Below are positions 13,880 to 25,136 of a stretch of DNA of 35,499 nt, piece after piece. A program made the translations under genes and the position numbers. Below the pieces are notes generated by a model, which was not told the DNA's origin, did not search any database, and saw nothing but the letters and a program-made list of their open reading frames with translations. The DNA is from Candidatus Brocadiaceae bacterium. Its GTDB lineage: Bacteria; Planctomycetota; Brocadiia; SM23-32. The stretch is from positions 1-35,499 of the forward strand of contig PUMJ01000286.1 in the NCBI GenBank assembly GCA_003551305.1, written 5' to 3'. Each line of letters begins with the position of its first letter. The first letter of the stretch is position 1.

Positions 13880-15175
13880 CTATGGCCGACCCGCGGTTTC
13901 GACCAGGGCTCCTTCGGCCGCCTGGAGCGTATCCTCGACATCCCCTTCCGTGTGGGCTGCGGAGAGAAACGCCGACTCGAACGGCGACGGCGGCAGCAGG
14001 ACGCCGCGCTCCAGCATGCCGCGGAAGAATCGCGCGTAGCGCTCGCCGTCGGCGGCCCGTGCGCTCCGGTAATCCGTGACGGGGGCGTCGCTGAAGAAGA
14101 CCGTGAACATGCCGCCGCACCGGTTGACCCGCAGGGACAGGTCGGCGGCCCGCGCCATCTCCTGCAGACGGTCCGTCAGCCACCTCGTCAGCGCCTGGAG
14201 CCTCTCGTACGGCGGATCACTGCTCAGCTTCTGCAGGACGGCCAGGCCGGCGGCCGCGACGACGGGGTTGCCGGACAGCGTGCCCGCCTGGTAAACGTCC
14301 CCCAGGGGCGCCAGCCGGTCCATGATCTCCGCCCGTCCGCCGAAGGCGCCCACGGGCAGCCCTCCGCCGATGATCTTGCCGAAAGTCGTCAGGTCCGCCC
14401 GCACGCCGAACCGTCCCTGGGCCCCGCCGGGCCCGACGCGGAAGCCGGTTATCACCTCGTCCAGCAGCAGCACCGCTCCGCTCTCGTCGCAGAGGCGCCG
14501 CAGTTCGGCCAGGAAGCCCTCCCGGGGCGGCACAACGCCCATGTTGCCGGCGACCGGCTCCGCCACAACACACGCCACCCGGCCGGCGTGCTCATCCAGC
14601 AGTTCGGCCACCGAATCGGCGTCGTTGTAGCGGGCCACCAACGTCAGGTCGGCCAGCGCGTCGGGCACGCCGGCGCTGCGGGGTATGCCGAAGGTGGCCA
14701 GGCCCGAACCCGCCGACGCCAGGAAGCTGTCCGCGTGGCCGTGGTAGCCGCCGGCGAAGACGATGATCATGTCCCGCCCGGTGTGGGAACGCGCCAGGCG
14801 GACAGCGCTCATCAGGGCCTCCGTGCCGGAGTTGACCAGCCGCAGCCGTTCGATACCGGGCGCCGCATCCATGAGAACTTCGGCGAGCTCGGCTTCCACG
14901 CGGGTGCACATGCCGTAGCCCGTGCCGCGCCAGGCGGCCTCGCGCACGGCGGCGGTCACCTCCGGCGCCGCGTGGCCGAGGATGAGCGCCCCCCACGACA
15001 TCAGGTAATCCACGAAGCGACGACCCTCGATGTCGTAAAGGTGCGCGCCCTTGCCGCGCTCGGCGAACAGCGGCCTCCCCCCCACGGCGTCGAAGGCCCG
15101 CACGGGGCTGTTGACGCCCCCCGGCATCAGCCGGCGGGCGCGTGTGTGCGTCGTCTCCGTCAGCTTGCCAGCCAT
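13880..15175 (-). CDS. hemL: Glutamate-1-semialdehyde 2,1-aminomutase
   Basis: 431 residues from ATG 15175, preceded by GAGGCGG; the frame is open to 15859, but that extension lies antisense-free within hemB's other frame and encodes nothing HemL-like. The enzyme converts glutamate-1-semialdehyde to 5-aminolevulinate with PMP/PLP. Signatures are LMPGGVNSPVRAF at the N-terminus, MSWGALILGH, NSGTEALMSAVRLARSHTGRD, FAGGYHGHADSFL, AEPVAGNMGVVPP, LLDEVITGFRVG, the PLP lysine in TFGKIIGGGLPVGAFGG, YQAGTLSGNPV and a C-terminal MLERGVLLPPSPFE. It has normal length. Its start overlaps hemB by 16 bp, and it is the last gene of the tetrapyrrole operon, supplying the substrate for HemB. Confidence 0.96.
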   Translation of the reverse strand: MAGKLTETTHTRARRLMPGGVNSPVRAFDAVGGRPLFAERGKGAHLYDIEGRRFVDYLMSWGALILGHAAPEVTAAVREAAWRGTGYGMCTRVEAELAEVLMDAAPGIERLRLVNSGTEALMSAVRLARSHTGRDMIIVFAGGYHGHADSFLASAGSGLATFGIPRSAGVPDALADLTLVARYNDADSVAELLDEHAGRVACVVAEPVAGNMGVVPPREGFLAELRRLCDESGAVLLLDEVITGFRVGPGGAQGRFGVRADLTTFGKIIGGGLPVGAFGGRAEIMDRLAPLGDVYQAGTLSGNPVVAAAGLAVLQKLSSDPPYERLQALTRWLTDRLQEMARAADLSLRVNRCGGMFTVFFSDAPVTDYRSARAADGERYARFFRGMLERGVLLPPSPFESAFLSAAHTEGDVEDTLQAAEGALVETAGRP

Positions 15176-16128
15176 TGGACCGCCTCTTCGGCGTAGTAGG
15201 TGATTACCGCATCCGCACCGGCCCGCTTGATGCTCAGCAGCGCTTCCAGCGCCGCCTCTCGCTCGTCCAGCGCCCCGGCCTGCGCCGCGTGCTTCAGCAT
15301 AGCATATTCGCCGCTCACGTGGTAGGCCGCCAGCGGCAGGCGGCTGCGCCGTCGCAGCTCCGCCAGCACGTCGAGGTAGGGCAAAGCGGGCTTGACCATC
15401 AGCCAGTCCGCTCCCTCCTGCTCGTCCAGCAGGGCATCGGCGATCGCCTCTCGCCGGTTGGATGGGGGCAACTGGTAGCCGCGCCGGTCTCCCCGGCCCG
15501 GCGCCGAGCAGGCCGCCTCGCGAAACGGCCCGTAGAAGGCCGAGGCGAACTTGGCCGCGTAGGACATCACCCCCACCCCGGTGTAACCGGCGCCGTCGAG
15601 CGCCTGGCGGATCGCCCCCACCTGCATGTCCATCATCCCGGAGGGGGCCACCAGGTCCGCCCCCGCTTCGGCGTGGGCCAGTGCCATACGGCCCAGTGCT
15701 TCCAGAGTGCGGTCGTTGTCCACCTCTGCCCCTTCGGTCAGCACGCCGCAATGGCCGTGCGTTGTGTAGGCACAGAGGCAGAGGTCCGTTATCACGGTCA
15801 GCGCGGGCCGTTCGGCTTTCAGGCGTCGCACGGCCGACGCCACCAGGTCCCCTTCCCACGCTGCCGAGCCGGTCTCATCCCTGGAGTCGGCCTCGGGCAC
15901 GCCGAAGACGAGCACGGCCGCGCTCCGCCAGCGGCCCGCCTCGGCGGCCATCCGGTCCGCGCTCAGGCGTCGGACGCCCGGCATCGCCGCGATGTCCTGC
16001 TCCCGGTCCGCGCCCGGAATGGCGAACACCGGGAGTATGAAGTCGTCCGGCAGCAGGCGCGTCTCACGGGCCAGCCGTCTCAGGCCGTCCGAGCGCCTGC
16101 GACGGCGCATCCTGACCCTCTTGTCCAT
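15160..16128 (-). CDS. hemB: Porphobilinogen synthase (5-aminolevulinate dehydratase)
   Basis: 322 residues. It condenses two 5-aminolevulinates into porphobilinogen. The zinc-type cysteine motif DLCLCAYTTHGHCG is intact, so this is a zinc-dependent rather than Mg-only form. Both active-site lysine segments are present: MSYAAKFASAFYGPFR and MVKPALPYLD. Also visible are LVAPSGMMDMQVGAIR, YHVSGEYAMLK and a basic N-terminus MDKRVRMRRRRRSDGLRRL. The ATG overlaps the cobA-hemD gene by 65 bp and the stop overlaps hemL by 16 bp, a sign of a tightly packed operon. The long overlap is unusual; ATG 16110 is an alternative that shortens it only slightly. Confidence 0.95.
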   Translation of the reverse strand: MDKRVRMRRRRRSDGLRRLARETRLLPDDFILPVFAIPGADREQDIAAMPGVRRLSADRMAAEAGRWRSAAVLVFGVPEADSRDETGSAAWEGDLVASAVRRLKAERPALTVITDLCLCAYTTHGHCGVLTEGAEVDNDRTLEALGRMALAHAEAGADLVAPSGMMDMQVGAIRQALDGAGYTGVGVMSYAAKFASAFYGPFREAACSAPGRGDRRGYQLPPSNRREAIADALLDEQEGADWLMVKPALPYLDVLAELRRRSRLPLAAYHVSGEYAMLKHAAQAGALDEREAALEALLSIKRAGADAVITYYAEEAVQWLAS

Positions 16129-17506
16129 AAGGGGTCACCACCTTTCCATCAAAGCCTGCTTCCCTGATCGCCCGGAGCGTCGGTTCGCCAATGCACCAGA
16201 CCTCGGCCTGGAACGCCTGCGCCCCGTAAACCTGCAGGTAAGCCCGCACTCCCGAACCGCTCGTGAAGTAAATGACGTCATGCTGAGGCAGGGGGCGGCC
16301 CAGTTCCTCGTGCGGAGCCACGGTATGGAGCGCCAGGCGCTCAAGGCTCTCGGCGCGTCGCTCAAGACCCTCCTGCAGGCGTGGCCCGGCCTGCTGCCCC
16401 TGCACCACCACGAGGCGATCGCACCGGGCCGGCAGTTCGGCCAGCAGGCCGGCCGAACCGGCCTCTGCCGGCACGAGGTCGGGCGCGATCCCGCATCGGA
16501 GCGCGACCGCCGCCGTCCCTCGTCCTGCGGTAGCCACCCGGCATCCGGCGACGGCCCGTGCGTCCCGCCCGGCCGCTCGCAACGCCCGGAAGAAGCTCTC
16601 CGCCCCCGTGGGGCTCGTCAGCACAAGCCAGTCGGTCTCGGGCTCGCGGAGTTCTTCGATAGCGGCGACAACGGCGTGCGGCGACGTGCCGGTGGGCTGC
16701 ACCCGCAGGGCCGGCCAGTGCAGCAGCCGTCCCAGGCGCCGAAACCGCGTCGGGTCCAGGCCGGTGAACAAAACAATGGGGCCGTTGCGCAGCCCGCCAC
16801 GCGGCTCGGCGGCCTGCCCCACAACGAGCAGGGCGGGCGAGGATATGCCGTGCTGGCGCGCCAACCGGGGCATCTGCTGCAGCTCTCCCAGCACGCGCCG
16901 CTCCCACGGCATCTCCCCCCGCTCCACCAGCGCAGCCGGCGTCGTCGGCTCGTGGCCCTCTTCCATCAACCGTTCCACGAGCGAGCCCAGCACACTCACG
17001 CTCATAAACGCCACCAACGTATCGGCTCGCGGGAGGCTTCGGGTTTCGTCACCGCCCGCCAGGCGGCCCGTGAACGCGGCGAACGAACGCCCTTCGCCCC
17101 GCCACGTCAGCGGCAGGCCGGCCGTCGTCGGGACGGCCGTGGCAGCGGTCATCCCGGGGATGACCTCCCACGGGACGCCGGCTTCTTTTAGGAACTCGAC
17201 CTCCTCGGCCGACCGCCCGAACACGTGCGGGTCGCCGGTTTTCAGGCGGGCCACTGTGCGCCCGCTGCGGGCGTGCTCCGCCATGAAACGCAGTATCTTT
17301 TCATGGCTGGTGCGCGTCTCACCGGAGCGCAGCTTGCGGACCGTCCGCCCTGCGCCATCAAGACCCAGTTGGCACAGAAAGTCGCCGGGCAGCAGGTTGT
17401 CCCACACGATGACGTCGGCGGCCTGCAGGGCGCGCAGTGCGCGCAGACTGAGAAGGTCTGCCGCCCCCGGCCCCGCCCCCACCAAATACACCACGCCCCT
17501 CACCAC
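16064..17506 (-). CDS. cobA-hemD: Uroporphyrinogen-III C-methyltransferase / uroporphyrinogen-III synthase fusion (CobA-HemD)
   Basis: 480 residues from GTG 17506. Residues 1-240 are SAM-dependent SUMT: VYLVGAGPGAADLLSLRALRAL, ADVIVWDNLL, RLKTGDPHVFGRSAEEVEFL, GMTAATAVPTTAGLPLT and ALVERGEMPWERRV. Residues about 245-460 are a HemD-type synthase (VLFTGLDPTRFRRL..., WLVLTSPTGAESFFRAL, DVIYFTSGSGVRAYLQV, CIGEPTLRAIREAGF); HemD is poorly conserved, so its identity rests on position and the S/T-SxxG motifs. The protein would close hydroxymethylbilane to uroporphyrinogen III and methylate it to precorrin-2. The GTG overlaps the upstream fusion gene by 7 bp. CobA-HemD fusions are known in several phyla. 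Confidence 0.93.
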   Translation of the reverse strand: MVRGVVYLVGAGPGAADLLSLRALRALQAADVIVWDNLLPGDFLCQLGLDGAGRTVRKLRSGETRTSHEKILRFMAEHARSGRTVARLKTGDPHVFGRSAEEVEFLKEAGVPWEVIPGMTAATAVPTTAGLPLTWRGEGRSFAAFTGRLAGGDETRSLPRADTLVAFMSVSVLGSLVERLMEEGHEPTTPAALVERGEMPWERRVLGELQQMPRLARQHGISSPALLVVGQAAEPRGGLRNGPIVLFTGLDPTRFRRLGRLLHWPALRVQPTGTSPHAVVAAIEELREPETDWLVLTSPTGAESFFRALRAAGRDARAVAGCRVATAGRGTAAVALRCGIAPDLVPAEAGSAGLLAELPARCDRLVVVQGQQAGPRLQEGLERRAESLERLALHTVAPHEELGRPLPQHDVIYFTSGSGVRAYLQVYGAQAFQAEVWCIGEPTLRAIREAGFDGKVVTPYGQEGQDAPSQALGRPETAGP

Positions 17507-19641
17507 GGCATGGCCTCCCTGTCGCCCAGGTCGAGCGGCTCCAGCAGACGGCGCAACGTCCGGTTGTCCTCCCGCACCACCAGAGCCAGCGCGCCCTGAC
17601 CCGGCGTGGCCGGGAACTCCTCCAACGAGAAGACCTGGCTGATCCTGTCCTCCTCGCCCAAGCGCAACAGCCCGACGGCCGCCAGCACCAGCGCGTCGTA
17701 GTCGCCCCGCTCAAGCTGCCGCAGCCGGTCGGGCACGTTGCCGCGGATGTCGGCCGGCTCAAGGTCGGGCCGCAACCGCAGGATGCCCTCGCGGCGTCGG
17801 TCGCTGGAGGTGCCCACGCGCGCTGCGGGGGGTATTTCGTGCAGCGACGCACCGTCCCGGGTGAGGAGCGCCTCCCAGGGGGCCAGCGACGGTGTCAGCG
17901 CCGCGACCACCAGGCCCTTCCGCAACACGGCCGGCAGATCTTTGGCGCTGTGCAGCGCCACGTCAATGTCCCCGCGCAGGAGCGCCTCGTCCAGGTCCCG
18001 CGTGAAGAAATCGTCGTCTCTGACCTGCGGCAGCGGCGTCTGGCGGTCGCGGTCGCACGGGGTGTCCATAGTCACGTTGCGGACCTCGGCCCCGGGAACC
18101 AGCCGGGCCAGGTATCCGTTCACTTCCTCTATCTGTCGCAGCGAGAGCCGGCTTCCCCGCCCGCCCAGCCGGATGGGCGGCGGCACCGGCTGCGGATGGC
18201 GCCGGCTGAAAAGGCGTAAAGAGTGCGCCACGGCCAGGCGCTCCGCCTGCGCGCTGGCCGCCGCCTGCCGCCCGGTCAGGGGCGTCTGACCGATCTGTCG
18301 CAGGCCGTTGTAGCCGGCGGGCGAAACGCCGGACAGGTCCTCTCGATGAGCCTCCGCCAGGTCCACCACTACAGTCGAGCCGTTGCGCAGTTCCGAGCAC
18401 AGCCTCTCAAGGGGCGCAGCGGCCAGCTCTGCAGTCAGGATCACAGCATGGGCGCGCTCCGACTGGTCCGAGAACTGCTGCGGGCTCACAACGGGCAATC
18501 CAAGCTGATCGCACCAGGGAACGCCGGCCCCACCCGCCCGACGCGAGACGGGCACCACCCGGGCCCCCTCTTCCATCAACCGCCTGGCTATCTGTTCGCC
18601 CAGTCGGCCGCAGCCGACCACGGCCACGCGTCGTTGCTGCAGGCCTCCGAGGGTGCCGGTCAGGCGCCGGGCGACCAGGGCGACCCATGAGCCGGCCGGC
18701 ACCAGGCCCGACTCTTTCCTGATCGTCTTCTGGGCACGCACGGCCGCCTCGAACGTCTCCCGCACATCGTCCCCGGCCGGAGCGCTTTCCGGTATCGCCG
18801 AGCGAATCTGCCCGACAACCTCCGTCTCGCCCAGCAGCGGGGAGTCAAGACCCGAGGCCACCCGCAGCAGATGGTGAAGGGCAGCGGCGCCGGTGCGGAA
18901 GTAAACGGCGTCCCGGTGCGCTTCCAGCATCACACCGGTCCGGGTGTGGATCGCGGCGCGCAGGTCCCGGCCCATTCCGCGGGGGTGAGAGGAGACGAAG
19001 TATGCTTCCCATCGACGGCAGGTCGCCAGCGTCGCGAACCCCGCCGCCCCGTCCGGCTCATCGCCGGGGCCGAACCGCTCGAGGCTACGGAACACTTCGT
19101 ACGGGACGTCCTGCCGGGCCACACCCAGCACAGCGGTCTGCCGGGGAGGCTCTTTCCACCGGTCCAGGGCCGCCGCGATGGCGTCCCGGGTGCGGCGGGA
19201 TCTCCCGCAGTCCCGGCCGTCCGAATGCACGGCCACGGTCACGCCGTCCGCCCTGTGCACAGCGGGGAAGATCACGCGCGAGAAGCGCCCCGGCGAAACC
19301 ACGCACGCCAGCCCGCCGTGGCCATGCACGTCCTCGGCGATGCGCAGGTTCAAAGACGGGTCGTCGGTGGCGGCGATAACGAAGGTGTAGTCCGCCGCAT
19401 CTTCGGCCGGCCAGGCGTCCTGGCGCCAAGTCACCTGCCCGGACTCGATGGCCGACATCAGGCGGTCGTTGACCTCGGGGGCCAGCAGGGTCACCAGGGC
19501 TCCCGCCTCGGCCAGGGTCACCGCTTTGCGGGCGCCGACACGACCCCCGCCGACGACCAGGCACTTCAGCCCCTCGACATCAATAGCCAGCGGCAGGTAG
19601 CGCGCCGCACCGGCCTTCTTGCTCTCCTGTGTGTCTTGCAT
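17500..19641 (-). CDS. Three-domain fusion: precorrin-2 dehydrogenase (CysG_N) - glutamyl-tRNA reductase (HemA) - hydroxymethylbilane synthase (HemC, C-terminal domain missing)
   Basis: 713 residues. Residues 12-165 are CysG N-terminal/Met8p-like: LKCLVVGGGRVGARKA (NAD site), VIAATDDPSLN, GRFSRVIFPAV; this oxidises precorrin-2 and may insert iron. Residues 168-475 are glutamyl-tRNA reductase: catalytic C208 in ATCRRWEAYF (usually TCNR), HHLLRVASGLDSPLLGETEVVGQI, NADPH site VAVVGCGRLGEQIARRL. Residues 490-713 are HemC: LGGRGSRLSLRQIEEV, catalytic aspartate D568 in VALHSAKDLP, VGTSSDRRRE, IRGNVPDRL, ATPGQGALALVVREDN. It stops about 20 residues after that motif, so domain 3 with the GGCxxP cysteine that carries the dipyrromethane cofactor is absent. 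The end is not an obvious frameshift: the stop overlaps the cobA-hemD GTG. ATG 19641 has GGAAG upstream. Confidence 0.92.
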   Translation of the reverse strand: MQDTQESKKAGAARYLPLAIDVEGLKCLVVGGGRVGARKAVTLAEAGALVTLLAPEVNDRLMSAIESGQVTWRQDAWPAEDAADYTFVIAATDDPSLNLRIAEDVHGHGGLACVVSPGRFSRVIFPAVHRADGVTVAVHSDGRDCGRSRRTRDAIAAALDRWKEPPRQTAVLGVARQDVPYEVFRSLERFGPGDEPDGAAGFATLATCRRWEAYFVSSHPRGMGRDLRAAIHTRTGVMLEAHRDAVYFRTGAAALHHLLRVASGLDSPLLGETEVVGQIRSAIPESAPAGDDVRETFEAAVRAQKTIRKESGLVPAGSWVALVARRLTGTLGGLQQRRVAVVGCGRLGEQIARRLMEEGARVVPVSRRAGGAGVPWCDQLGLPVVSPQQFSDQSERAHAVILTAELAAAPLERLCSELRNGSTVVVDLAEAHREDLSGVSPAGYNGLRQIGQTPLTGRQAAASAQAERLAVAHSLRLFSRRHPQPVPPPIRLGGRGSRLSLRQIEEVNGYLARLVPGAEVRNVTMDTPCDRDRQTPLPQVRDDDFFTRDLDEALLRGDIDVALHSAKDLPAVLRKGLVVAALTPSLAPWEALLTRDGASLHEIPPAARVGTSSDRRREGILRLRPDLEPADIRGNVPDRLRQLERGDYDALVLAAVGLLRLGEEDRISQVFSLEEFPATPGQGALALVVREDNRTLRRLLEPLDLGDREAMPW

Positions 19642-19711: not shown

Positions 19712-20431
19712 TCATTCCTTGTGCTCGGGTCTGAGCGGGCGGGTATGAATGCCGCACTCGCCGCCGCACTTGCTGGTTCCTATCCAGCGGCCGGCCCGCT
19801 CGTTGCCTCCCCTGACAACGCTGGAGCACGGGGCGCAACCGAGCGAACGGTAGCCCTGCTCGTAGAGGGGGTTAACCGGCACGCCGCGGACGGCCAGATA
19901 TTGCCAGATCTCCCGCTCCTTCCAGATGAGGATGGGGTTGAGCTTTGTCAGGCCGGCGTCGCGGTGCTCGACCTCACGGAAGTCAGTGCGCGTGTATCCT
20001 TCCGTGCAGCGAAGGCCGGTGATCCAGCCGGAGACGTCCATCTCCTCGATGGCGCGGCGCGTGGCCTCCACCTTCAGTATATCGCAGCAGCGGTCCGGGT
20101 CCAACTCGTAGAGGTTGTCGGGCAGCTTGAGATCATTGCTGAAGATGCGCAGTTCGGGGTGTTTTTCTATCGTCTGGCGCATGAACCTGTTGGTTTCCTC
20201 GGGCCAGAAGCGCGTTGAAACGACGAAACCACGGATCTCGGGGCTAACCCTCTTGGCCAGGTCCCAGACCACACAGGAATCCTTGCCCAGACTGTTGGCG
20301 ACCACCAGCCCCTCGCCGTGCAGGCGCCATGCCTGTTCGATCAACTCGAGCGACCGCTCGACTTTCTCGGCGAAGTTCAAGTTATCCACGAGCCACTCGA
20401 TGTCCTGCTGTTTGGCCGTCTCCACCGTCAT
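19712..20431 (-). CDS. cysH: Phosphoadenylyl/adenylyl-sulfate reductase (APS-type, 4Fe-4S)
   Basis: 239 residues. It reduces activated sulfate (APS or PAPS) to sulfite. The PP-loop-like nucleotide site is NSLGKDSCVV, and the family segments WITGLRCTEGYTR, KLNPILIWKEREIWQYL and NPLYEQGYRSLGCAPCS are present. The cysteine pairs C115-C116 and C199/C202 are the 4Fe-4S ligands of the APS-using branch, and the catalytic cysteine is C226 in the C-terminal ECGIH motif, so reduction of APS is more likely than PAPS. The usual DTG segment is replaced by VSTRFWPEE. AAAGGGA precedes the ATG. It is followed by the siroheme/tetrapyrrole genes and preceded by an Rrf2 regulator, with an operator-like inverted repeat upstream. 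No sulfite reductase gene is in view. Confidence 0.92.
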   Translation of the reverse strand: MTVETAKQQDIEWLVDNLNFAEKVERSLELIEQAWRLHGEGLVVANSLGKDSCVVWDLAKRVSPEIRGFVVSTRFWPEETNRFMRQTIEKHPELRIFSNDLKLPDNLYELDPDRCCDILKVEATRRAIEEMDVSGWITGLRCTEGYTRTDFREVEHRDAGLTKLNPILIWKEREIWQYLAVRGVPVNPLYEQGYRSLGCAPCSSVVRGGNERAGRWIGTSKCGGECGIHTRPLRPEHKE

Positions 20432-20526: not shown

Positions 20527-20973
20527 CTAAATCCTGTACATCGGCACGAATTCGCTCCTCCGCCGGCTCTCCTCTTCCACCAGGTCCTGCAGCGTCTTGC
20601 CGTCAAGGACCTCAGAGAGAGCCTCGCGTGCCTCCCGCCACAGGGGCAGGAACACGCAACTGGGCCCCAGGGGACAGTCGGCCTCCGCACCCGGCACCGC
20701 GCACCCCACCGGGGCCAGCGGCCCTTCCAGGAAGCGGATAACCTCCCCGACGGTCAACTCGCCGGGCGAGCGCACCAGGAAATAGCCGCCGCCTTTGCCG
20801 CGCCGGGACTCCACGAAACCGCCCCGCTTCAACTCGTGAAGGATAACCTCCAGGAAGCGTGCGGGTATAGCCTGTGCCTCCGCCACGTCGGCTATCTTCT
20901 GCGGGCCGTCGCCCTTGTGGCGGGCCAGCTCGAACAACGCCCGCAGGGCGTACTGTGTCTTCTGCGACAGCAA
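20527..20973 (-). CDS. Rrf2-family transcriptional regulator with IscR-like cysteines
   Basis: 148 residues from TTG 20973 (LSQKTQYALRALFEL is the standard Rrf2 start). The winged helix covers about residues 1-80: YALRALFELARH, IPARFLEVILHELKRGGFVESRRGKGGGYFL, then LTVGEVIRFLEGP. Three cysteines, C91, C100 and C106, are spaced like the cluster ligands of IscR (92, 98, 104), so an iron-sulfur cofactor sensing redox, iron or sulfur supply is likely. Rrf2 members regulating cysteine synthesis (CymR) or Fe-S assembly (IscR) are the closest functional models. Lying directly upstream of cysH, with a shared sequence core in both promoters, it probably regulates sulfate assimilation and represses itself. 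The ligand is not known. Confidence 0.92.
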   Translation of the reverse strand: MLSQKTQYALRALFELARHKGDGPQKIADVAEAQAIPARFLEVILHELKRGGFVESRRGKGGGYFLVRSPGELTVGEVIRFLEGPLAPVGCAVPGAEADCPLGPSCVFLPLWREAREALSEVLDGKTLQDLVEEESRRRSEFVPMYRI

Positions 20974-21185: not shown

Positions 21186-23483
21186 ATGCCAATGGACGGC
21201 CCCTTTCGCAGTGAACCCGTGCCAACAGTCGGCCTTCAGAGTCGCGCGGCGACCTCGGAGCGCGCTCTCGACCGCGAGCTCGCCTTCACCGAGACCTACA
21301 TCGCCAACCGCCAGGAGCACATCGCCATCCGCGAGGCACGCTGCCTCGAACAAGGACGCCTGCTGTATCCCATCCGCGAAGGCGACCTGTTCGCCGGGCG
21401 CCACATGAAGGCCGCGCTCGACCCCGACGGCCTGCTGGTCGGCTTCGGGCTCGAACACGACGATTCCGGGCGCATCTACTATTGCGATTTCGACCGCCTG
21501 CGACAGGCTGTCGGGGGGCTGGACGACCCCCGCTACCGCCGCCGCTGCGAGGAGATGCTCGCCTTCTGGGAGCGGGAGGACACCCAGACGCGTTACCTGG
21601 AGGCCCTGCCGGAGGACGTGCGGCGCGCCACGCGCAACAGCATCGCCAACAAGGGAATCCGCCTGGCCGGCGTCCTGCTGGACTACGACAGGCTGATGCG
21701 CCTCGGCTTGCCCGGCCTGCGCCGGGAAGTCAGAAGGCACCACACCGCCGCCGTGGCCGGGGACGGACGCGCCCCGCGGTTCTACGAAGGCATGCTCATG
21801 GCCCTGGACCTGCTGGAGCGCACGTGCCGCCTCTACGCAGAGGAGGCTCGCCGGATGGCCCGGGAGACCGACCGGCCCGACTGGCGGCCCGAAGCGGAAC
21901 AGATGGCGTCCGACCTGGAGCACCTCACCCGCCAGGCGCCGTGCACCATGCGCCAGGGGCTCCAGCTCGCCTGGCTCTACTCCGTCATGGCCGGCGTCAC
22001 GAACTTCGGCCGCATGGACGTCTACCTGGGTGACCTTTGCGTCAGCGACATCGAGGCCGGCCGCCTCACCGAGGAGCGCGCCGTTGAGTTGCTGGTCGCA
22101 TTCTGGCGCCTGGTGGCCGACGCGAGGTTCCACTTCAACGCCCGCATCATCGTCGGCGGACGCGCCCGGCGTAACGAGGCAAACGCAGACCGTTTCGCCC
22201 TGCTCGCCATGGAAGCCAGCCGCCGCAGTCACACCACCGAACCGCAGCTCAGCCTCCGCTTCTACGAAGGGCAGAACCCCGTCCTGATGGACAGGGCCCT
22301 GCAGGTCATCGGCGATGGCTGCGTCTACCCCATCCTTTACAACGACGAAGTGAACGTTCCGGCTGTCGAGAACGCCTTCGGCGTCAGCGCGGACGAAGCC
22401 GCCCACTACCTGCCCTACGGGTGCGGGGAGTACGCACTGGACCACCGCAGCTTCGGCTCCCCCAACACGGCCCTTTACTTGCTGAAGGCCGTCCAGGTGG
22501 CCATGCACAACGGCGTTGACCCCGACACCGGCGAACTGACGGGCCTGCGGACCGGGGAGTTCGCATCGTTCGAGACCTTCGAGGAGTTCTGGGCAGCCTA
22601 CGCGCGCCAGGTCGAGTATCACGTTCAGCAGGTGGCCAGGGCGCACGCCGTCGAGTACGAAATCGAGCGGAGCACCGCTTCGTTCCTCTACGCAAGCATG
22701 CTCTTCGACGACTGCCTGGAGCGAGGCCGGTCGCTGGTGGACGGCGGGGCACGCTACCGTGGCGCCGTCATCGAATCCATGGGGCTTGTGAACGCGGGCG
22801 ACTGCCTGGCGGCTATCAAGAAGCTCGTCTACGATGAGAAGCGCTTCACGCCCGAGCAACTGCTCCGGATGCTCGAAGCCGACTGGGAAGGCTACGAACG
22901 GGAGCGCTGGCTGTTCGTCAACGCTCCGAAGTACGGCAACGACGACCCGGAAGCCGACCGGCTGGTCTGCCGCGTCTCCGAACAGGCCTGCCGCAGTTGC
23001 ATGGAACAGGCCGCCGAGGTGGACATGGACTACGTCCTGCTGGTCTGCATCAACAACTGGGCGCACATGAAGTTCGGGGAACAGACCGGCGCCACTCCTG
23101 ACGGCCGCCGCGCGGGCACCCCTATCGCCAACGGCAACGGGCCGACGGCGGGCAACGACCACAACGGCGTGACCGCGTTCCTCAACAGCATCGCCAAGCC
23201 CGACCCCTCCATCCACGCCGGCTACGTGCATAACATGAAGTTCAGCAAGCGGCTCTTCCGCGAGAACCGGCCGAAGCTGGACGCGCTGCTGCGGGGCTAC
23301 TTCGCCAACGGTGGCACGCAGGCCATGATCACCGTGGTGGGCCGCGACGACCTGGAGGCCGCCATGCGCGAGCCGGAGAGCTACGCGAACCTGATGGTGC
23401 GCGTCGGTGGCTTCTGTGCGCGCTTCGTGGAGCTGGAGCCGGACCTCCAGCGCGACATCATCAACCGCACCTGCCACGAATGA
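21186..23483 (+). CDS. Glycyl-radical enzyme of the pyruvate formate-lyase superfamily, substrate unknown
   Basis: 765 residues, slightly short for the family (usually about 780-850). The radical site near the C-terminus reads VRVGGFCARFVELEPDLQRDIINRT; G742 aligns with the radical glycine of RVxGY. The active-site thiyl cysteine is C413 in PYGCGEYAL, with E415 as the likely general base (GCxE). Both catalytic elements are thus intact, while GCVE of choline lyase and diol dehydratases is GCGE here. Other PFL-like segments are HTTEPQLSLRF, NAGDCLAAIKKLVYDEKRFTP and GATPDGRRAGTPIANGNGPTAG. The enzyme must be activated by a radical-SAM activase, which is usually adjacent but is not seen in this window. 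No strong ribosome-binding site is visible; ATG 21192 is an alternative start. Confidence 0.9.
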   Translation: MPMDGPFRSEPVPTVGLQSRAATSERALDRELAFTETYIANRQEHIAIREARCLEQGRLLYPIREGDLFAGRHMKAALDPDGLLVGFGLEHDDSGRIYYCDFDRLRQAVGGLDDPRYRRRCEEMLAFWEREDTQTRYLEALPEDVRRATRNSIANKGIRLAGVLLDYDRLMRLGLPGLRREVRRHHTAAVAGDGRAPRFYEGMLMALDLLERTCRLYAEEARRMARETDRPDWRPEAEQMASDLEHLTRQAPCTMRQGLQLAWLYSVMAGVTNFGRMDVYLGDLCVSDIEAGRLTEERAVELLVAFWRLVADARFHFNARIIVGGRARRNEANADRFALLAMEASRRSHTTEPQLSLRFYEGQNPVLMDRALQVIGDGCVYPILYNDEVNVPAVENAFGVSADEAAHYLPYGCGEYALDHRSFGSPNTALYLLKAVQVAMHNGVDPDTGELTGLRTGEFASFETFEEFWAAYARQVEYHVQQVARAHAVEYEIERSTASFLYASMLFDDCLERGRSLVDGGARYRGAVIESMGLVNAGDCLAAIKKLVYDEKRFTPEQLLRMLEADWEGYERERWLFVNAPKYGNDDPEADRLVCRVSEQACRSCMEQAAEVDMDYVLLVCINNWAHMKFGEQTGATPDGRRAGTPIANGNGPTAGNDHNGVTAFLNSIAKPDPSIHAGYVHNMKFSKRLFRENRPKLDALLRGYFANGGTQAMITVVGRDDLEAAMREPESYANLMVRVGGFCARFVELEPDLQRDIINRTCHE

Positions 23484-24029
23484 CCACCACGGCCCGCGAG
23501 ATAGCCGATGCTGTGTGGATCCCGCCGGGGCGGAGTCTGACCCCCTCGGGCGCTCCGCCCCCCGGGTGCTGGTAGACGCACGGGACGTGCTGGAACGGCA
23601 CCCCGATGCCGGCGACACATGGGAGTTCCTGCGTATCCTGGGGGACCCGGCGGCACTGGATGTGGCCATCGCGTGCTGGTGGCCCGGCGAGACCCGGATC
23701 ACCGAGTGTGCCTCCCTGCTGGCACGATTGGCGGGCTCATTCGAGGATCTGCCGAAGCATCTCCGGCAGGAGGCTTTACTCGCAGAGCGAGACATTTTGA
23801 CACGAGGTCCTCACGGCGAGCCTCAGTAGCGGGACGACGGGTTCGACGGTCCGCCCGTCAGACTGAAGGCCCGTTGACTGGAATTCGATAGGGTCTTCAC
23901 CGACGAGTTTGAGCAGGTTTTCTTCGGTGCCGCACAGGAAGAAGAGAACGGTTCGGAGGTGATCGTGCCCTCCAGAATCGTCGTGTGCAAAGCATGCGGC
24001 GCCCGCGACCGCCTTCAAGGAGAAACAAG
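23484..24029. other. Spacer with possible gene remnants
   Basis: 546 bp between two plus-strand genes. Besides the weak open frame listed separately, the plus frame 23878-24066 reads plausibly (FDRVFTDEFEQVFFGAAQ, then CKACGARDRL, a half zinc-ribbon) but has no start codon, as if a 5' end were lost. The last part is noticeably less GC-rich than the flanking genes. I cannot assign a family to any of it. Confidence 0.4.
23566..23829 (+). CDS. Possible small hypothetical protein
   Basis: 87 residues if started at GTG 23566. The translation VLVDARDVLERHPDAGDTWEFLRILGD and later LARLAGSFEDLPKHLRQEALLAER has a normal amphipathic helical character and a protein-like residue mix, unlike the surrounding shadow frames. 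No ribosome-binding site, family motif or conserved partner is evident. It may be a remnant rather than an expressed gene. Confidence 0.25.
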   Translation: MLVDARDVLERHPDAGDTWEFLRILGDPAALDVAIACWWPGETRITECASLLARLAGSFEDLPKHLRQEALLAERDILTRGPHGEPQ

Positions 24030-25136
24030 ATGGACGGATGGACTTCCGGATTTGAAGGTATCATAGACAACCACGTCCACATGCGCGGCCTGGACACCGA
24101 ACGGCGCATGCTGGCCATCCTCGAGGCCACCGGCATCGAGAAGATGGGCCTGGTAGCCATCCAGAACGAGCCGGCGGGCTCCGGGCTGGCCGAGCCACTG
24201 CTGCTGAAGGCCTGCCATCCGGAACGGTTCTTCGTCTTCGCCGGCCTGAACCATGCCGAGAAACTCTCCGGCGGGCAGGTCCGCACCCCGAGCCTTGTCG
24301 ACCAGGTGGACCGGTTCGTCGAGATGGGCTGCGACGGCATCAAGATGATCGAGGGCAAACCGACCTCACGTCAGAAACTCGACATCCCGGTCACGGACCC
24401 CTACTACGCCGACTACTGGGCGCGGGTCGAGGAACTGCGCCTTCCGATCATCTGGCACGTGAACGATCCCGAGGAGTTCTGGGACCCGGACAGGATACCC
24501 GCCTGGGCAAAGGAGCGAAACTGGGGCTACGGACCCGAGGACGTCCGCAAAGAGGAGCTGTACGCCGAGGTGGACGATGTGCTGGAGAGACACCCCGGCC
24601 TGCAGGTGGCCTTCGCGCACTTCTACTTCCTGTCGGCCGACCTGCCGCGGGCGGCCCGCTTCCTGGACGAGCACCCCGGCGTCCGCTTCGACCTGGCTCC
24701 CGGCATCGAGATGCTCTACAACATCTCGCGCGACCCGGAGGCCGGACGGGAGTTCTTCACCCGCTACGCCGACCGCATCGTGTTCGGCACGGACCTGGCC
24801 AGCCGCCACACCGTCGAAGAGGGGCGCATCCGCGCGGGCATCATCTTCCGCTGGCTCGAGACCGAGGACGAGTTCCGCGTGCCCGAGGAGGCGGACTTCC
24901 TCCTCGGCCCGCCCGAAGACGGCCTCATCCGGGGCATGGCCCTGCCCCGGGACGTGCTGCGGAAGGTCTACCGGAGCAACTTCGTGCACCTGGCCGGCGC
25001 TGCCCCCCGGCCGCTCAACACAGACGTCGTCATCGAGGAGTGCCGCCGGATGGCCGCCATAGCCGAAGCCCTGTCCGGCAAGCCCGCCGCCGAGACCGAA
25101 GCGGCACGGGTGATCGAACGGCTGACCGGCACGTGA
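24030..25136 (+). CDS. Amidohydrolase-family (PF04909-type) metal-dependent hydrolase or decarboxylase
   Basis: 368 residues from ATG 24030, with AAGGAG 6-7 nt upstream. It is an amidohydrolase-2 TIM barrel. The first metal motif is IDNHVHM (H15, H17), strand 5 has PIIWHVND, strand 6 has VAFAHFYFLSA, and the strand-8 aspartate is in VFGTDLASRH. These are the expected His/His/His/Asp metal ligands. Members hydrolyse lactones, such as sugar lactones, or decarboxylate aromatic acids. The motifs GCDGIKMIEGKPT and IPAWAKERNWGYG do not identify the substrate. It is monocistronic as far as can be seen, following the glycyl-radical enzyme after a 546-bp spacer and converging on the zinc-ribbon gene. 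Confidence 0.85.
   Translation: MDGWTSGFEGIIDNHVHMRGLDTERRMLAILEATGIEKMGLVAIQNEPAGSGLAEPLLLKACHPERFFVFAGLNHAEKLSGGQVRTPSLVDQVDRFVEMGCDGIKMIEGKPTSRQKLDIPVTDPYYADYWARVEELRLPIIWHVNDPEEFWDPDRIPAWAKERNWGYGPEDVRKEELYAEVDDVLERHPGLQVAFAHFYFLSADLPRAARFLDEHPGVRFDLAPGIEMLYNISRDPEAGREFFTRYADRIVFGTDLASRHTVEEGRIRAGIIFRWLETEDEFRVPEEADFLLGPPEDGLIRGMALPRDVLRKVYRSNFVHLAGAAPRPLNTDVVIEECRRMAAIAEALSGKPAAETEAARVIERLTGT

Follow-up and report, generated by a model that had tools for sequence, protein, structure and literature searches.

A bacterial lineage of hydroxymethylbilane synthases that lacks domain 3 and probably builds the tetrapyrrole chain without a covalently held primer

Contig PUMJ01000286.1 of a Candidatus Brocadiaceae bacterium (assembly GCA_003551305.1), of which positions 1 to 35,499 were analysed and are called the window here, encodes a 713-residue protein that joins precorrin-2 dehydrogenase (CysG_N), glutamyl-tRNA reductase (HemA) and hydroxymethylbilane synthase (HMBS, HemC). 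The HemC part ends after domain 2 and lacks domain 3, which in E. coli comprises residues 222-313 and includes the cofactor cysteine, C242 (PMC3945110). Cells that rely on HemC of this kind probably build the tetrapyrrole chain without a covalently held primer. The explanation favoured here, with moderate confidence, is that these proteins are working synthases of a lineage without domain 3, that they hold the growing chain non-covalently and that they most likely prime it with porphobilinogen (PBG). The broader claim, that a large bacterial lineage makes the tetrapyrrole precursor without a covalent dipyrromethane cofactor and begins its chains from PBG, is offered more tentatively. The self-assembled dipyrromethane primer has been described as a very unusual cofactor that is unique to tetrapyrrole biosynthesis (PMC7242693). 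A lineage of several phyla that keeps the active site with neither domain 3 nor a conserved cysteine would mean that this cofactor is dispensable, or that the chain can also be held by other means.

An earlier reading of the window, made from the DNA alone and referred to here as the original prediction, claimed the threefold fusion, and the claim stands. The frame is open throughout, and Pfam finds NAD_binding_7/CysG_N at residues 18-127 (E 3e-30), GlutR_N at 199-310 (E 2e-21; 76.7 bits against a cut-off of 27) and Porphobil_deam (PF01379) at 490-696 (E 2e-57). The CysG_N part passes the TIGR01470 domain cut-off (92.9 vs 62.3 bits). The HemA part scores below the full TIGR01035 cut-off (82.2 vs 209.55 bits) and is reduced, because GlutR_N is matched only from profile position 36 and GlutR_dimer (PF00745) is not among the 21 Pfam families listed for the fusion at E<=1. 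It retains the motif TCRRWE, whose cysteine (Cys208), which we take to be the catalytic cysteine of glutamyl-tRNA reductase, is invariant in an alignment of all five fusions of this kind. The HemC part passes the TIGR00212 hemC equivalog cut-off (207.3 bits vs 164) with a match that covers only profile positions 1-215 of 293.

With residues numbered as in E. coli HemC unless stated otherwise, the HemC part can be aligned to solved HMBS chains until residue ~220, and the chain stops soon after. Pfam lists no Porphobil_deamC (PF03900, domain 3) for the protein at E<=1, and the GGC loop with C242, the carrier of dipyrromethane, is missing. The catalytic aspartate D84 and the substrate-binding arginines R11, R131, R132, R149, R155 and R176 are present; both the truncation and the retained residues had been read correctly from the DNA. 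Structure prediction, proposed as a check, agrees: domains 1-2, modelled with AlphaFold2 without domain 3, reach a pLDDT (predicted local distance difference test) of 95.7 and superpose on E. coli HMBS (1PDA) at 1.2 A over 218 residues (Z 27.3). The active-site lid, taken in ten-residue blocks, has a mean pLDDT of at least 92 in this model; most of it is missing from the crystal structures of the E. coli and human enzymes covered by PMC3945110. A model of the whole fusion, which drew on five sequences and reached a pLDDT of 70.2, was too poor to tell whether another domain occupies the site of domain 3 and was left unused.

The same truncation recurs in other genomes. Among 98 genomes, the host included, PF01379 is found in 79 and PF03900 over its cut-off in 71. 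The eight with the former and without the latter comprise G049, where the match is a fragment of 24 positions, and seven with long open frames, in all of which the alignment to HMBS breaks off at one and the same hinge. Five of the seven, the host (G000) and G002, G007, G012 and G084, have the CysG_N-HemA-HemC architecture, so that the search of related genomes recommended in the original prediction did recover it, again without domain 3; the other two (G078, G091) have the order HemC-CobA-HemD. A scan of named genomes was made with an alignment of these seven proteins and one motif, and its best 80 loci were kept. Judged with our own domain 3 profile, built from 27 canonical relatives, 32 of these have domain 3, 47 lack it and one (L090) reaches the contig end at the start of domain 3; because a single motif and the best 80 matches were used, 47/80 is no measure of prevalence. 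By eye, 26 of the 47 are fused to CobA(-HemD), three to HemD only and 15 stand alone (open frame <260 aa), with three other or unclear (L062, L072, L116). Their record titles include Omnitrophota, Chlamydiota, Kiritimatiellae/Lentisphaerae/Verrucomicrobia, Bacteroidales, Spirochaetes, Babeliaceae, Termititenax, WOR-1 and WS1. All 28 chlamydial-phylum loci examined with the same profile (20 plus 8 re-fetched, one of the 20 being the same gene as L108) lack domain 3, and six of the eight re-fetched members lie on contigs >1 Mb.

In a tree of domains 1-2 from 98 proteins, one branch parts 54 rows without domain 3 from 44 rows with it (support 99/97). This branch is present in 100% of 200 bootstrap trees, with E. 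coli HemC among the rows that bear domain 3 and the Chlamydiota proteins L108, L112, L121 and L125 on the window's side. As judged from this tree, HemC without domain 3 is a single lineage and not a degenerate copy. The tree is unrooted and its sample of canonical HemC limited, so that loss and late gain of domain 3 look alike in it. Since the two forms part on a single branch, the shorter one could be the older, with domain 3 as a later addition, and the lineage has a bearing on the order of domain assembly in HemC.

Domain 3 was also sought elsewhere in the genomes. The host assembly (3.89 Mb in 298 contigs, 90.5% complete, 4.95% contamination) has a single PF01379 match, the window HemC, and PF03900 is undetected in it at E<=10; neither a free-standing HemC nor a protein consisting of domain 3 only, both of which the original prediction had asked after, was found there. 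Every genome that holds one of the 47 loci has PF01379 (47/47; two copies in G103 and G139), and PF03900 exceeds its cut-off in 0/47, with two sub-threshold matches (E 0.06 and 0.09). The picture is the same in the phylum to which G128, the Parachlamydia sp.-titled genome that carries L108, belongs: PF01379 is found in 46 of 50 genomes sampled from it, and PF03900 in none over its cut-off, with one sub-threshold match (E 0.09). In both tests PF03900 was found in 11/14 control genomes. A second complete hemC or a free domain 3, found neither in the host nor in the 47 or 50 further genomes, was rejected as an explanation.

What the lineage has kept and lost can be read from 81 distinct rows without domain 3, the 54 of the tree plus 27 further chlamydial-phylum genes (L152, the same gene as L108, is counted once). 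R11, Q19, D46, F62, S81, K83, D84, R132, R149, R155, R176 and Q198 are invariant in 81/81, S13 is kept in 80/81 and S129 in 79/81. By contrast, R101 is arginine in 3/81 rows, vs 42/43 rows with domain 3. Its human equivalent, by an offset of 15, is Arg116, which is salt-bridged to Glu250, and mutations expected to disrupt this contact appeared damaging (PMC10577081); by our own numbering Glu250 corresponds to E231 of domain 3. As R101 is lost and the active-site residues are invariant, the alignment indicates that the contact with domain 3 is gone while the active site has stayed. The lid differs too, position 60 being aspartate in 50/54 rows of the tree without domain 3 vs glycine in 40/43 rows with it.

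No cysteine column is conserved among the 81 rows, the most frequent holding 25/81, and a replacement cysteine in domains 1-2 was rejected on this ground. Four members (L059, L070, L078, L106) are whole open frames without any cysteine, and because of this they cannot bear a thioether-linked dipyrromethane of their own. Each is the sole PF01379 match of its genome and lies beside CobA and HemB, with HemD in 3/4 and HemL in 3/4. None of the chlamydial-phylum frames examined is cysteine-free. The four naturally cysteine-free members make the question of the cofactor directly testable.

Because both the cofactor-binding domain and a conserved cysteine are absent, we infer that the chain is held non-covalently by an active enzyme. 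Domains 1 and 2 would form a complete cleft for PBG binding and deamination. The first PBG would most likely be its own primer, its free alpha position attacking the azafulvene that the next PBG forms at D84. A tetrapyrrole would result from three couplings, and throughout growth the pyrrole chain would be gripped by Arg, Lys and Ser side chains of domains 1-2, below the remodelled lid. The leftover aminomethyl end would then be deaminated, and the resulting hydroxymethylbilane handed to the neighbouring HemD; a HemC that is fused to HemD or encoded close to it would help to trap this unstable product. In the human enzyme, substrate units one and two come to lie where the two rings of the cofactor had been (PMC7907807), indicating that domains 1-2 already hold a dipyrrole. 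In the shorter enzyme PBG may fill that place and be extended to a tetrapyrrole that the invariant side chains keep in position, and the cleft would need room for four rings, not six.

Several observations weigh against this explanation. No activity measurement was found for any HemC without domain 3, and self-priming is a proposed step. R131 is retained in just 55/81 rows, so that the substrate site is not wholly unchanged; its human equivalent, R149, forms a salt bridge with the acetate of the C1 ring (PMC7907807). The aspartate at lid position 60 is likewise less constant once the chlamydial rows are included, being found in only 64/81, with N, H, G or Q in the others. In canonical HMBS, as shown for the human enzyme, the cofactor cysteine in domain 3 is intolerant of mutation (PMC10577081), and a cysteine or a part like domain 3 could come from an unrecognised partner protein.

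The nearest rival is an active synthase whose primer is still covalent, on another residue of domains 1-2 (acidic, Ser or Lys) or on a cysteine that is not conserved. There are candidates for such an anchor, namely the lineage-typical acids at position 60 and at 154 (E in 39/54) and the cysteines at positions 75 (25/81) and 172 (23/81). It is nevertheless unlikely: the cysteine-free enzymes and the lack of any conserved cysteine column speak against a thiol, the variation at position 60 speaks against that acid, and we know of no precedent for an oxygen or nitrogen anchor of the dipyrromethane cofactor. That domain 3 is supplied elsewhere was one of three options left by the original prediction; as a rival, this would have an unrecognised protein, or some other portion of the fusion, provide domain 3 or its cysteine in trans. 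It is improbable, since PF03900 passes its cut-off in none of the 47 and the 50 genomes and the arginine that docks domain 3 is lost. Possible carriers do exist in CobA-HemD and HemA, to which these HemC proteins are often fused or adjacent, and L044 and L076 have unrelated-looking genes between HemC and CobA. The partners vary among members, however, with stand-alone frames common (15/47); the frames between HemC and CobA in L044, L062 and L076 have no match to our domain 3 profile at E<=10; and in the window no gene is hidden between the fusion and CobA-HemD, because the two overlap.

A second option, that HemC is an inactive or regulatory remnant, could appeal to the intolerance of mutation noted above for the domain 3 cysteine and to this cysteine's being the exclusive attachment site in human HMBS (PMC7907807). 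It is rated lower still, because no other HemC was found in the genome, the catalytic residues do not vary across 81 distinct sequences and the preceding and following pathway enzymes are encoded nearby; the spread over multiple phyla points the same way. That an assembly error or frameshift removed domain 3 is very improbable, even though the window comes from a fragmented assembly. Independent genomes end at the same hinge, six chlamydial-phylum members without domain 3 lie on contigs >1 Mb, and in 18/26 CobA fusions the methyltransferase begins 25-33 residues past the QG motif, leaving no room for domain 3; in E. coli HemC the distance from this motif is 47 residues to C242 and 118 to the C-terminus. 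The motif pattern worked for these 18; in the others it failed to detect the start or put it in the wrong place, and their tails were read by eye. In the window there is no sign of a frameshift, because the stop of the fusion gene overlaps the start of CobA-HemD by 7 nt and the relatives end at the same place. Neither a continuous domain 3 in relatives of this type nor a second complete hemC in the host genome was seen, within the limits of a 90.5%-complete assembly. A primer or chain held non-covalently, the remaining option of the original prediction, is then the best supported of its three on the sequence evidence.

HemC without domain 3 is already on record under an ordinary enzyme name, since NCBIfam holds a short model, NF002202 (PRK01066, 241 positions), that is named simply hydroxymethylbilane synthase. 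It is of the same length class and stops before domain 3 like the window HemC. With a cut-off of 251, the Parachlamydia-titled L108 passes (252.2) and the Simkania-titled L112 falls just below (249.4), and we take the model to be a Chlamydia-type one. The window protein scores 155.0 and, unlike the short HemC, is fused to CysG_N-HemA. Canonical HMBS (TIGR00212; E. coli HemC, 1PDA) shares the fold of domains 1-2, the catalytic and most substrate-binding residues, whereas the window HemC has no domain 3 and no C242 loop, its lid glycines are replaced and R101 is lost. The Clostridium josui-type hem operon has an order similar to that of the window (precorrin-2 dehydrogenase, hemA, hemC, cobA-hemD, hemB, hemL), and its HemC has domain 3, unlike that of the window. 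In Euryarchaeota HemC is fused to CobA-HemD, as in G078, G091 and many relatives, and the accessible text of that report has nothing on loss of domain 3 (PMC11237513). In the open-access literature, which mostly leaves out subscription papers, no paper was found on HemC without domain 3.

The neighbours of the fusion gene in the window (Table 1) are likewise tetrapyrrole genes. The true start of HemL must lie inside its open frame, because the aminotransferase domain occupies residues 263-622. Similar neighbours are common in the lineage. When 53 loci without domain 3 (the 47 plus six relatives; 3.4-18 kb, many ended by a contig edge) were searched by tblastn with the window's proteins, fused partners counted, CobA and HemD were each found in 40, HemB in 34, HemL in 30, HemA in 25 and CysG_N in 15. 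HemC was alone in four (L061, L112, L121, L125), although by eye the tail of L121 is HemD.

Table 1. Positions of the fusion gene, its parts and its neighbours in the window
Feature	Positions	Strand	Evidence
CysG_N-HemA-HemC (domains 1-2) fusion gene, 713 aa	17500..19641	-	open reading frame and family profiles
Precorrin-2 dehydrogenase / siroheme synthase N-terminal domain, residues 16-157	19171..19596	-	TIGR01470, PF13241
Reduced glutamyl-tRNA reductase, residues 199-433: GlutR_N and Rossmann region	18343..19047	-	profile matches
Hydroxymethylbilane synthase domains 1-2, residues 490-704, without domain 3	17530..18174	-	PF01379, TIGR00212, AlphaFold2 model
Active-site lid RDDDFFT replacing the canonical GGKGLF stretch; D544 = E. 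coli position 60	18001..18021	-	alignment
Catalytic aspartate D568 = E. coli D84	17938..17940	-	invariant in 81 distinct rows without domain 3
CobA-HemD fusion (SUMT and uroporphyrinogen-III synthase), 7-nt overlap with the fusion gene	16064..17506	-	PF00590, PF02602, TIGR01469
HemB (porphobilinogen synthase)	15160..16128	-	PF00490, E 2e-127
HemL, open frame	13880..15859	-	PF00202; name from operon context
PAPS-reductase-family gene, upstream of fusion, same strand	19712..20431	-	PF01507
Rrf2-family regulator, upstream of fusion, same strand	20527..20973	-	PF02082

The host pathway that needs the window HemC probably runs via siroheme to heme (the Ahb route), as judged from its gene content, because AhbB and AhbC-like and AhbD-like genes were found and NIR_SIR (PF01077) was not found in the host genome. 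The siroheme decarboxylase AhbB scores 149.8 bits against a cut-off of 125, and beside it are radical-SAM proteins with AhbC (524 vs a cut-off of 650) and AhbD (427 vs a cut-off of 500) as their top-scoring families, the three being clustered at L143:4829-8173 on contig 13. A sulfite or nitrite reductase that depends on siroheme was rejected as the use of siroheme on the same findings. A second siroheme-decarboxylase match in the host genome (C13:7310-7597) holds a TAG stop.

Some minor observations concern the window and other genomes. On the strand opposite to the fusion, a pyruvate-formate-lyase-like glycyl radical enzyme at 21186-23483 adjoins an amidohydrolase at 23985-25136. Four genomes of the window's own family (G001, G003, G004, G005) have no PF01379 match at E<=0.001, G004 being 96% complete. 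In some HemC genes of the phylum that bear domain 3, those of G077, G083 and G092 (L052, L053, L050), PF03900 matches are partial (30 to 54 of 74 positions), which suggests that their third domains are divergent in sequence; the match of G075 is also partial, and its contig stops there. G008, of the window's family and with 7% contamination, has two HemC genes with domain 3 (L046 and L057), one of them fused to CobA-HemD, and their cofactor loops read GAGCHAEAG and GAGCHAVAG in place of GGCxxP.

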